This document shows positions 11,586 through 16,401 of a stretch of 64,000 nucleotides of DNA, one piece after another. The translations under genes and the position numbers were made by a program. The notes under the pieces were generated by a model, which saw only the letters and a program-made list of their open reading frames with translations, was not told the DNA's origin and ran no database searches. Every line of letters starts with the position of its first letter. Within the stretch, counting starts at the first letter, position 1. Origin of the DNA: Acidimicrobiia bacterium (GTDB taxonomy: Bacteria; Actinomycetota; Acidimicrobiia; Acidimicrobiales; MedAcidi-G1); the NCBI GenBank assembly GCA_012959995.1, contig DUCC01000016.1, positions 1-64,000 on the forward strand, written 5' to 3'.

Positions 11586-13031
11586 GTGCCCACAAAAGTT
11601 GACTTCGCTCCCCTCCCCGATGGGGTTTCGGTAATTGTTAAATCCGACTGCCCGGCCTGCTTGCTTGCTGCCGATGTGCTTATCGAACTTGGCCAGGCCG
11701 GCCACATCACCTTGTACAGCCAAGACGACCCGGCTTTCCCCACCACCGGAGATTGGGTAGTCGACGACACAGATCTCGCCGTCAGTTGGCACCACGACAT
11801 CGAGGCCGTACCCACCCTCATAAAAACCGTAGACGGTGTAGAAACCGAACGCACCGCAGGTTGGAACCGTGCCGCATGGGAATCAATTACCGGCGTTACC
11901 GGTTTGGGCCCTGATCTGGTGGATTTTAAACCTGGTTGAGGTTCTCTTTCGGTTGACCCCGGGCGGGTCGACGAACTAAGGGTCCGCTACAGCGGAAACA
12001 CCATCCAGGCCCGCCGCATTGAGGTCGCCACCCTCGAAGACCCTATGGAAGCGCTTTTTGACCGAGGATGGACCGACGGCCTTCCGGTGGTTCCTCCTAC
12101 CGAAGCTCGGGTTTTACGCATGTTGGAAGGCACCACCCGAAGCCCCCAAGATGTGGTGGCTGTCGTGCCCCCCGATTTAGCAGAATGCACAGTAGAAAAA
12201 GCGGCCATTAACGCGGTGATGGCCGGTTGCTTGCCCGAATATTTTCCGGTGGTTTTAACCGCGCTCGAAGCTATCTGCACCGACCAATTCAACATGCACG
12301 GGGTGCTGGCCACCACCATGTCGGTGGGGCCCATCTTTGTGGTTAACGGGCCTATAACCGAACGCATTGGCATGAACTCTGGCGTCAACGTGTTGGGTCA
12401 CGGCAACCGTGCCAACAGCACCATCGGTCGTGCGGTGCAACTCATTGTTCGTAATCTCGGCGGTGGTGCTCCCGGCGGCATTGACCGAGCCACCTTAGGA
12501 CATATGGGCAAACAAGGTTTTTGCTTCGCTGAAGCACCTTCTGCCTGGACCTCGCTGGCCCAAGAAGAAGGGTTCACCGCCCAGCAAAATACGGTGACCG
12601 CTTTCGCCGGGGAAGGCCCGCGCTTACTTTTTGATCAACAAAGCCGCAGCCCAGAATCGTTAGTACGTATGTTGGCTGACGGTTTACGCTCTACCGTGTC
12701 TTCTCGCATGGTCATGGGCATTGATGCCATGTTGGTGCTCTCGCCCGAGCACCTGTCCCGGTTTGTTGATGCCGGATGGGACCGCTCACGTTTTCTGACT
12801 GAACTGAGTGAACTTTTGGTCATTGACGCCGATGACATTATTGTGGGCGCTCACGGCATTGACGAGGGCATCCCAACCGGTTTTGCTGGCCTGCAACTCC
12901 CCAAGTTTCGCCCCGGCGGTTTGCTGATCGTTCACGCCGGGGGGTCCGCTGGTTTGTTCTCGGCCATCATCGGCGGTTGGCTAAACGGAAACACCGGCAG
13001 CGACCCGGTTACCAAGGAGATACCACTATGA
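11586..13031 (+). CDS. Selenoprotein: thioredoxin-like CPAC domain, in-frame UGA (Sec118), large C-terminal domain
   Basis: Two open frames in the same phase, 11586-11936 and 11940-13031, are separated only by a TGA at 11937-11939. Read as selenocysteine they make one 481-residue protein. Residues 1-117 look like a thioredoxin fold: SDCPAC with Cys22/Cys25, and EAVPT as a cis-proline candidate. Sec118 lies in FKPGUGSLSVDPGRV. A roughly 360-residue domain follows, starting ALFDRGWTDGLPVVPPT and holding glycine-rich HGNRANSTIGRAV. The only start codon available between the two halves is an ATG at 12045, 105 bases after the TGA, and the coding-like sequence between them argues for readthrough. 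A stem-loop follows the TGA. The stop overlaps the next gene's ATG. I know of no assigned enzyme activity; a thiol/selenol redox role is inferred. The GTG start lacks a clear ribosome site. Confidence 0.88.
11952..11972 (+). promoter_or_regulatory. Bacterial SECIS candidate after UGA 11937
   Basis: GTTGACCC (11952-11959) pairs fully, with one G-U, to GGGTCGAC (11965-11972) around the five-base loop CGGGC. The stem begins 12 nucleotides after the UGA. SelB-type recognition elements lie just downstream of the Sec codon in bacteria and have a short stem with G-containing loop, which fits. Actual SelB binding is inferred. Confidence 0.75.
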
Positions 13032-13558
13032 CCCAAAACTTAAATGCCGTAATGCTGGACCCCACCGCAGAAAACCAGCCCGAGCAACGGCCTCTCTGTG
13101 ACCGTCCCGCCACGCTCCAAGGTTTGACCGTGGGCTTGTTAGATATTTCTAAACCTCGGGGCAACGTGTTTTTAGATCATCTCGAAACACTGTTGAGTGG
13201 CCAGGGGGCCGAAGTGCGCCGGTACGTCAAACCCACCTTTGCCAAACCAGCTCCGGTTGACCTGCGCCACGAAATCGCCACCAGTTGCCATGCGGTTATT
13301 GAAGCACTCGCCGATTGAGGTTCTTGTACCACGTGCAGTGTGCACGACATCAACGATTTTGAACGGCGAGGCATCCCCGGGGTTTTTGTGGCCTCCGCCC
13401 CTTTTGTGGACGCTGCGGAAATCCAAGCCAAAGCGCTGGGTCTTGAGGTAGCACGCGTATTCACCACTCACCCTATTCAGGACCGCACTGACCATGAGAT
13501 GCGATCACTGGCCGAAACCGCTTTTGCGCAACTGGTAGAAAAAATCACCGCCCCGTAG
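13028..13558 (+). CDS. UGSC-family selenoprotein (Sec97-Gly-Ser-Cys)
   Basis: Two in-phase frames, 13028-13315 and 13319-13558, are joined by TGA at 13316-13318, giving a 176-residue protein. The decoded motif is EALADUGSCTTCSVHD, with Sec97, Cys100 and Cys103. This is the defining Sec-Gly-Ser-Cys signature of a family known as UGSC (seleno)proteins, in which Cys can replace Sec in homologues. The N-terminal half (GLTVGLLDISKPRGNVFLDHLE) and C-terminal half (IPGVFVASAPFVDAA) suggest an alpha/beta fold. A strong ribosome site AAGGAG at 13014-13019 precedes the ATG, which overlaps the previous TGA stop as ATGA. A stem-loop follows the UGA. Function is unknown; it is probably a partner of the preceding selenoprotein. 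Confidence 0.92.
13332..13346 (+). promoter_or_regulatory. Bacterial SECIS candidate after UGA 13316
   Basis: CGTGCA (13332-13337) and TGCACG (13341-13346) form a perfect six-pair stem around a GTG loop, starting 13 nucleotides after the UGA codon. Position and size fit a SelB-recognised element. The stem also encodes the TCSV residues, so it is constrained by both RNA and protein. Confidence 0.72.
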
Positions 13559-13565
13559 CCCACCT

Positions 13566-14501
13566 CTAGGGGAGAACGAAACCGTTATTGGTTTCTTGCG
13601 CTAACCCATCGGCCACCACGGTGGCTGCTACTCGTTGTGCCCGCTGAGGATCATCAGGCCACCCCATGACCGGCGCTAAATGGTCTCCGTTAACCGGGCC
13701 CAGCCCCAAAGCGGCCACCAGTCGCCCCCGACCTTGCCGGTCTGAGCCTTCAAATCGAGATTGTTTACCGGCCACCCCCGCTGAGCCAGGCGCCGGATCT
13801 GGCCCATTTTTTTCTCGGTTCCCTTGCCATACACAAGCCTCAGCAATCGGACATTGTTTACAACGAGGCGCACGGGCCCGACACACCATGGAGCCCAAAT
13901 CCAAAACTGCTTGATTCCACGCCCACCCGGCCCCTACCGGCACCGAAGCATCAGCCATGTCTTGTGCTTGCCGAGGCTTCAACGAGCACCCGGCGAAACG
14001 TGCCAAAACCCGCCCCACGTTGGTGTCCACCACCGCAGCGTCTTGTTCAAAAGCAAAGGCCAGAACTGCTCGAGCTGTGTAAGGCCCTACCCCCGGTAAA
14101 GCCAGCAGCGCCGGCAGCTCGTCAGGCACTACGCCGTGGTGTTCGTTAACCAGCACCGTGGCGCAACGATGCAACATCACGGCCCTCCGGTTGAAGCCCA
14201 GGCCAGACCATTCCTGCACCACCTCCCCTGCTGACCCGGCCGCGCAGGTGGCGGCATCGGGGAACCGCTCTAAAAAGGTTGGCCATCGAGGCAACACCCG
14301 GTCAATTTGTGTTTGTTGCAACATCACTTCAGCCACCAGAACCGCCCAGGGGTCTCGCGTGTTGCGCCACGGCAAGTCGCGAAGCCATTCAGCGCCCCAG
14401 GCCAAGACCGCTACGGGCAGGAGCGGCTGCGAAATACTGTGGTCAGATTCTTTTGGAGCAGGCACAAAACTCACGCTAGTTCCCAATGGAGAACTCTTCA
14501 T
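13566..14501 (-). CDS. mutY: A/G-specific adenine glycosylase MutY, short form
   Basis: MutY removes adenine mispaired with 8-oxoguanine. The 311-residue product keeps catalytic Glu58 (AEVMLQQTQ), the helix-hairpin-helix LPGVGPYTARAV near 135-146, catalytic Asp159 in VVDTNVGRV, and the Fe-S ligands Cys207, Cys214, Cys217 and Cys223 in the expected C-x6-C-x2-C-x5-C pattern. The region after residue 225 is short and does not show the full NUDIX-like 8-oxoG recognition domain seen in longer MutY proteins. The start is uncertain, because the first 25 residues are not family-like. It is convergent with the selenoprotein operon, whose stop is only 7 bases away. Confidence 0.93.
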   Translation of the reverse strand: MKSSPLGTSVSFVPAPKESDHSISQPLLPVAVLAWGAEWLRDLPWRNTRDPWAVLVAEVMLQQTQIDRVLPRWPTFLERFPDAATCAAGSAGEVVQEWSGLGFNRRAVMLHRCATVLVNEHHGVVPDELPALLALPGVGPYTARAVLAFAFEQDAAVVDTNVGRVLARFAGCSLKPRQAQDMADASVPVGAGWAWNQAVLDLGSMVCRARAPRCKQCPIAEACVWQGNREKNGPDPAPGSAGVAGKQSRFEGSDRQGRGRLVAALGLGPVNGDHLAPVMGWPDDPQRAQRVAATVVADGLAQETNNGFVLP

Positions 14502-14543
14502 CCATGTCGGCAGTTGGGTCTGACGCTTGCTAACGTCCCTGCT

Positions 14544-15050
14544 GTGCCTGAATCAAACCTTGACCTAACAAAAATTCTTCAAACGGAGCTTCACCCGGTA
14601 GGCAGTCAGGCCCGCCCGGTGAGCGAGTTTTTAACCACTTTTCCGCTGGCCATAGTTGCCCTTGACCCTTTTACTCATGAAAGTTCTTGGCTGCTCGATA
14701 CCGCACGGCGGGTCTTAACAAACTTCCAAGGAGCCGACGTGCGGGTGGCTTACTTGGTGGCCGGCACCAACGCCGAGAGGGCTGCTCAGTTTCTTGGCCC
14801 ACTCGCTGACGAAGTCCTCACCTTGGCCGACCCCGACCGCTCGCTAGTTAGTGCGCTGGGTCTTGAGATTCTTCCTGCCTTTGCCGTTATAAGACAAGAC
14901 GGTTCGTTGTTGGCTTCGGCCCAAGGGTGGGACCCAGAAACATGGCGACCGGTGGCCGAAAGCTTGGCTGCCTTAACCTCTTGGTCTCGACCAGAGTTTC
15001 CGGTAGCCGGCGACCCTTCCCCCTACGCCGGTACCGCAGCCCAGGGGTAG
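14544..15050 (+). CDS. Thioredoxin-fold protein lacking active-site cysteines
   Basis: The frame is open from far upstream, but that part lies over mutY; a GTG at 14544 gives a sensible 168-residue protein. It reads as a thioredoxin-like alpha/beta fold: FPLAIVALDPFTHESSWLL, VRVAYLVAGTN, then VSALGLEILPAFAVIRQDGSL with a cis-proline-like LPAF and a final helix after WDPETWRPVAE. No cysteine is present, so it cannot be a thiol oxidoreductase and may be a binding or chaperone-like relative. It lies 34 bases upstream of a dehydrogenase gene and is probably co-transcribed. Confidence 0.72.
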   Translation: MPESNLDLTKILQTELHPVGSQARPVSEFLTTFPLAIVALDPFTHESSWLLDTARRVLTNFQGADVRVAYLVAGTNAERAAQFLGPLADEVLTLADPDRSLVSALGLEILPAFAVIRQDGSLLASAQGWDPETWRPVAESLAALTSWSRPEFPVAGDPSPYAGTAAQG

Positions 15051-16017: not shown

Positions 16018-16401
16018 GTGTCTTTGGCTATGCCCAATATTTCTGCTTTACTTTTAGCAATAGTTTTTCTGGTGGCCGGGGTAAACAAACTTCGCCGCCC
16101 CCTTGATACCCGGCGTTCGCTGCGAGATTTCGGGCTCCCCGCGCCTCGCCAACTCAGTATCGCTCTCCCGCTAGTTGAGTTACTTACCGCTTTTTTGTTG
16201 ATCATTAACCCAGCCACCGGGGGGCCTTGTGCGGTGGCTTTGCTTAGCGCTTTTACCGTGTTGCTGATCGGTCGCCTACGGGCTGGGTTGACCCAAGGGT
16301 GCGGTTGTTTCGGCGCCTGGTCGACCCGACCACTGTCTTGGCGAGACGTGGCCCGCAACCTCATTCTGATTGCTTTTGGGGTGACTGCCACGCTGGGTTA
16401 A
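16018..16401 (+). CDS. MauE/DoxX-like membrane protein
   Basis: This small integral membrane protein (127 residues from the GTG at 16018, or 123 from the ATG at 16030) has four hydrophobic segments and the motif GCGCFG near 97-102 in the loop before the last helix. MauE/DoxX relatives with a CxCFG motif are linked to thiol-disulfide redox chemistry at the membrane, for example with cytochrome or amine dehydrogenase maturation. The partner here could be the thioredoxin-fold protein two genes upstream, but this is inference. It directly abuts the preceding dehydrogenase. Confidence 0.8.
   Translation: MSLAMPNISALLLAIVFLVAGVNKLRRPLDTRRSLRDFGLPAPRQLSIALPLVELLTAFLLIINPATGGPCAVALLSAFTVLLIGRLRAGLTQGCGCFGAWSTRPLSWRDVARNLILIAFGVTATLG

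Follow-up and report, generated by a model that had tools for sequence, protein, structure and literature searches.

The window analysed here, a stretch of 64,000 nucleotides from an Acidimicrobiia bacterium (contig DUCC01000016.1, positions 1 to 64,000), carries two overlapping genes on its forward strand. The downstream gene (13028-13558), delimited by translation, family profiles and homologues, encodes a UGSC-family selenoprotein of 176 amino acids, the selenocysteine (Sec) subunit of the pair. It runs exactly from an ATG at 13028 to a TAG stop ending at 13558, contains a single internal TGA, and is preceded by a Shine-Dalgarno-like AAGGAG (13014-13019). Its start overlaps the stop of the upstream partner gene (ATGA). 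This partner gene (11586-13031) encodes 481 amino acids, which sequence, alignment and model divide into a thioredoxin-like domain (11586-11900), a PGUGSL linker, and a domain of ~320 residues (12033-12986), hereafter BIG. No standard start lies between an upstream in-frame TGA and its GTG at 11586. Further along the same strand lie genes for a redoxin-like protein, with a weak Pfam match (14307-15050), and a MauE/DoxX protein (16018-16401); BLAST clusters of the two proteins recur near UGSC, at seven to eight loci in all, and these genes are perhaps part of a thiol-redox neighborhood.

The UGSC protein, the sole copy in its genome, passed both curated family profiles in the search that the first-pass annotation had proposed as a check on its family assignment, scoring 151.1 bits against NF041046 (cut-off 125) and 146.2 bits against PF24696 (cut-off 25). 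It is thus a full member of the family by profile, length, and motif. The family entry itself makes no statement on partner or function. UGSC selenoproteins were already reported in 2008 from the GOS metagenomes, where they were among the commonest selenoprotein families in ocean and lake samples (255 sequences from 37 samples); the same survey also saw a fusion of UGSC with Unknown_1 and guessed a thioredoxin-like fold (PMC2398784). A 2026 review leaves the function of UGSC unassigned (PMC13188914), in agreement with the first reading of this sequence, which considered it not established.

The internal TGA (13316-13318) falls within the motif DUGSCTTC and would encode Sec97. Taken alone, the window simply reads TGA at this position, which might be a normal stop codon or reflect an error in sequencing, leaving the gene broken. 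Against this, the frame of the UGSC homologues stays open through the codon and the sequence after it is conserved. We collected 126 homologues, 123 of which were readable at the Sec position: the same stop-type codon was read as Sec in 111 of them, and the other 12 carry a Cys. All 82 readable rows of the clade with a thioredoxin-fused partner have Sec, and the remaining members divide into 29 Sec and 12 Cys. The codon is TAG in Candidatus Blastococcus massiliensis (L093:7254-7256), as expected, because a UAG-Sec code, along with selenoproteins carrying the UGSC motif, was already reported for its lineage, the Geodermatophilaceae (PMC5330540).

Downstream of the UGA, a hairpin (13330-13348) was identified by covariation as a probable bacterial SECIS element. 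Across the alignment, it forms an eight-pair helix 15-33 nt 3′ of the UGA with 90.7% of the cells paired, and 17 cells changed on both sides of the helix, compared to 4.2 in shuffled alignments (0/500), a signal that relatedness of the sequences could explain in part. When the hairpin was slid along the alignment, every resulting version scored lower for covariation and had both fewer paired cells and fewer cells with changes on both sides. The six inner pairs of the eight form in the window, and an Rfam search matched no SECIS-like family. The genome also encodes complete Sec machinery (selA, selB, selD, and tRNA-Sec), with selA and selB as direct neighbors on a single contig, and UGSC adjoins selA/selB in homologous loci (confirmed by profile at L117). 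Hence, a broken gene appears exceedingly improbable, and the candidate reading as a chance open reading frame or broken gene was rejected on the conserved post-UGA frame, the hairpin covariation, and the Sec/Cys homologues. On these comparative sequence grounds, Sec97 is a genuine selenocysteine, as the first-pass annotation had read it.

The selD gene of this genome has an in-frame TGA of its own (G000:C20:36449-37369), which makes SelD a further probable selenoprotein. In the record of the Paracoccus ferrooxidans plasmid pFER4 (L216:7260-7950), where an annotated selB lies ~3 kb from BIG, the Sec UGA divides UGSC into two entries, each a hypothetical protein; annotation can therefore split genes of the UGSC/BIG type at UGA codons.

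The motif reads D-U97-G-S-C100-T-T-C103-S in the window, contains the [U/C]-G-S-C of the family, and is conserved in the homologues, so that the loss of conservation that was named at the outset as evidence against the redox proposal was not observed. Cys100 (13325-13327) is present in every readable row, 83/83 in the thioredoxin-fused clade and 41/41 among the other members, and Gly115, Pro117, and Phe126 were likewise invariant in the first UGSC alignment. This conservation of Sec97-x-x-Cys100 is consistent with the Sec-Cys redox couple proposed by the first-pass annotation. The resolving third cysteine proposed along with it holds up only by lineage: Cys103 (13334-13336) occurs without exception in the thioredoxin-fused clade (83/83), but only 19 of 41 members elsewhere have it, with W, A, Y, or another residue in the rest, and it is therefore not essential to the UGSC family. 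Two fusions of UGSC and BIG (L078:7390-9111 and L217:7281-9005, Sporomusa termitida) read DMGTSS where the Sec motif would stand; judging from these residues, the redox couple is lost in them while the sequence relationship is kept.

The N-terminal domain of the partner carries a CPAC (CxxC) motif (11649-11660). Thirteen partner members match the thioredoxin profile TIGR01068, and in the predicted model of the window protein (pLDDT 92) this domain is folded like thioredoxin (VIA Z 8.6, rmsd 2.6 over 86 residues); a fold search with the whole partner returned results filled by thioredoxins. Throughout the clade of the window, BIG is preceded by such a domain with CPAC and by a PGCGS linker, which in the window reads PGUGS. 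The corresponding codon (11937-11939) would encode U118, a probable second Sec, as 83 of 86 homologues have Cys there. The linker Cys is replaced by Sec in the window and in two relatives (L079 and L084), which together with L141, a Cys member, form one supported clade. Exchange of Cys for Sec usually marks a redox-active cysteine, and the replacement therefore indicates a redox role for this residue. A hairpin after the second UGA (11952-11972), found by folding in the window and in L079, is weak evidence for a possible SECIS element. Its folding energy is unremarkable, and folding energies at this site did not separate the Sec from the Cys versions (z −0.32 vs −0.35), so it is chiefly the Cys of the homologues that makes the case for Sec118.

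In profile searches, the BIG domain was covered by neither a Pfam nor an NCBIfam model, and where public records annotate it, the entry reads "hypothetical protein"; it merits a dedicated family model. It has many conserved polar residues, including C215 (in MAGC), which is Cys in more than 90% of the members and Ala in two fused ones (L076 and L077). A fold search with BIG gave no convincing relative, only weak matches to class I fumarase (Foldseek E about 1e-3), and a sequence search for PDB relatives returned none for either UGSC or the partner. No BIG homolog was found in a search of phages.

Within the phylum, BIG lies beside UGSC on the same strand, in either gene order, in 36 of 38 UGSC copies, and both copies without an adjacent BIG are near contig ends. 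A scan of named genomes yielded 580 BIG relatives, from which 80 loci were kept, covering Actinomycetota, Pseudomonadota, Chloroflexota, Acidobacteriota, Myxococcota, and others. UGSC was found at 77 of these loci, 76 where it is present and one where it is cut by the contig end after its start. Among 396 genomes, 27 encode both; UGSC over the cut-off never occurs by itself, and BIG does so in three, two of them as partial matches (Fisher p = 8e-39). The two are joined in one chain at five loci (L071, L073, L076, L077, and L078) and at two plasmid loci, and the pair also occurs on haloarchaeal plasmids. By gene order, fusion, and co-occurrence, UGSC and the BIG protein are one genetic unit. 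The first-pass annotation had suggested checking whether the large selenoprotein is a constant partner: the partner is indeed near-invariant, but outside the window only two relatives have it as a selenoprotein.

Where BIG has no fused thioredoxin, genes of the thioredoxin system may lie nearby, as in the plasmid-borne BIG-UGSC-trxB operon of Roseovarius THAF8, the trxB-trxA-BIG-UGSC operon of Arthrobacter ERGS1:01 (also a plasmid locus), and Variovorax SRS16, with a trxB near BIG-UGSC at a plasmid locus. Since many non-fused loci have no such gene nearby, this arrangement is suggestive rather than general. The other neighbors of this branch encode a CoA-transferase III, an AMP-binding ligase, an acyl-CoA dehydrogenase, and an enoyl-CoA hydratase, as well as TRAP, TTT, or ABC transport and LysR regulators, a gene context that suggests small carboxylates as substrates in that branch. 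The clade of the window has no constant metabolic neighbor, its neighbors being largely housekeeping genes, so that the catabolic context might not apply there.

The AlphaFold2 model of UGSC (pLDDT 93) is a five-strand alpha/beta fold that places Sec97 between a strand (89-95) and a helix (98-113). Its nearest PDB matches are receiver-, flavodoxin-, and McrC-like domains, the best VIA match being 8s7v chain H (Z 12.5, rmsd 2.8 over 129 residues), a chain of the MCR activation complex whose size suggests Mmp7 and its McrC-like domain. The likeness is one of fold only, as that domain holds iron-sulfur clusters and has no sequence match to UGSC. Thioredoxins were absent from the best 50 VIA matches, which does not in itself prove a different fold.

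Sequence profiles connect UGSC to the selenoprotein subunits of glycine and D-proline reductases. Fifteen of 27 UGSC members match TIGR01917 (glycine reductase selenoprotein B), at best with E 8.5e-7, two match the PrdB profile, and further matches were to GrdF and GrdH. Aligned by hhalign to GrdB Sec domains of Actinomycetota, UGSC reached 72.9% (E 3e-5), with Sec falling on Sec and an HP motif aligned, and small PrdB-like selenoproteins gave 55.5%. This homology spans only the Sec half of GrdB and PrdB, about 90 residues, and its hhalign value is 73%, not 95%. From the profile matches and the Sec-on-Sec alignment, UGSC resembles a Sec domain of the GrdB/PrdB superfamily that stands on its own. 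UGSC is not a GrdB itself: the window protein scores 16.3 bits against 602.2 for the full-length family, and PF07355 was not reported for it. No GrdE/PrdA-type partner (PF09338) was found in the window genome, and BIG as a relative of GrdE/PrdA was rejected at the sequence level (hhalign 0.1%), so that substrate activation of the pyruvoyl type is not supported. The window genome has two partial PF07355 (GRDB) matches elsewhere (G000:C10:120292-120657 and G000:C36:12254-12430), which resemble the small PrdB-like selenoproteins (UPLC) of its relatives. Other Actinomycetota (L159-L171) encode GrdB-like selenoproteins with UGTGTRCG, most of which adjoin GrdE genes.

Like UGSC, the D-proline reductase PrdA/PrdB/PrdC has a small subunit with a homologous Sec region in which Sec is followed by Cys at +3, and like the pair it has a separate reductant with a thiol/Sec arm. 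However, BIG is not homologous to the GrdE/PrdA family, and the reductant is PrdC there and apparently thioredoxin here. The glycine reductase (GrdB/GrdE with GrdA, Trx, and TrxB) shares with UGSC a UxxCxxC motif (PMC13188914) and a homologous Sec domain, and with the pair a dependence on thioredoxin, which for UGSC is predicted from the genes. It differs in that UGSC lacks the N-terminal half of GrdB and the window genome lacks GrdE.

We propose, with a probability of about 0.6, that UGSC is the Sec subunit of a two-gene, thioredoxin-driven reductase related to, yet distinct from, the glycine and D-proline reductases. BIG would bind a small substrate and activate it, an alpha-substituted carboxylate being the probable candidate. 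The selenolate of Sec97 would either attack the bound substrate or take up its oxidizing equivalent, after which Cys100 would resolve the product into a Se-S bond. The fused thioredoxin could then return the Sec97/Cys100 couple to its reduced state through a relay from CPAC via the PGUGS/PGCGS linker and, in the clade of the window, perhaps also via Cys103. This scheme is mapped onto the one published for PrdB, in which Sec attacks the alpha carbon of bound proline to give a selenoether, a PrdB cysteine cleaves it to leave a Se-S bond, and the thiol-selenol arm of PrdC reduces that bond; glycine reductase uses thioredoxin (PMC3091704).

The UxxC motif and the thioredoxin also fit the design of a thioredoxin-dependent peroxidase or other antioxidant enzyme, in which Sec97 would be oxidized to a selenenic acid, Cys100 would resolve it, and the fused thioredoxin would reduce the product. 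GrdB itself has reportedly shown peroxidase activity, according to the title of a reference cited in PMC3091704, and the lack of consistent metabolic neighbors in the window clade is compatible with such a role. We nevertheless regard it as unlikely, as an invariant partner of 320 amino acids with so many conserved polar residues exceeds what a peroxidase needs, and the non-fused branch has genes for carboxylate transport as its neighbors, along with CoA genes and LysR regulators. Somewhat less probable still is that BIG is the catalyst, for example a dehydratase-like enzyme, and UGSC an electron carrier or maturation factor that keeps a BIG cysteine reduced. The conservation of C215 and the faint fumarase resemblance would agree with this, but the Ala at that position in the two fused members does not, and the kinship with GrdB/PrdB places the Sec of UGSC in a catalytic role.

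The UGSC selenoprotein family and one fusion to Unknown_1 are already known (PMC2398784). Our search of the open-licence literature found no report of the near-obligate partner across phyla, of the thioredoxin arm with its second Sec, or of the kinship with GrdB/PrdB. A bolder and more tentative extension, which we consider rather less probable than the reductase proposal itself, is that UGSC, BIG, and thioredoxin might constitute a third class of selenium-dependent reductase beside the glycine and proline reductases, used mainly by aerobic bacteria and reductively splitting a C-N, C-O, or C-halogen bond in small carboxylates; the chain that binds the substrate would then also contain the electron donor and a second Sec. 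The near-invariant partner, the built-in electron donor, and the PrdB/GrdB kinship would turn an "unknown redox protein" into a defined complex open to assay, and an abundant marine selenoprotein family would thereby gain a testable function.
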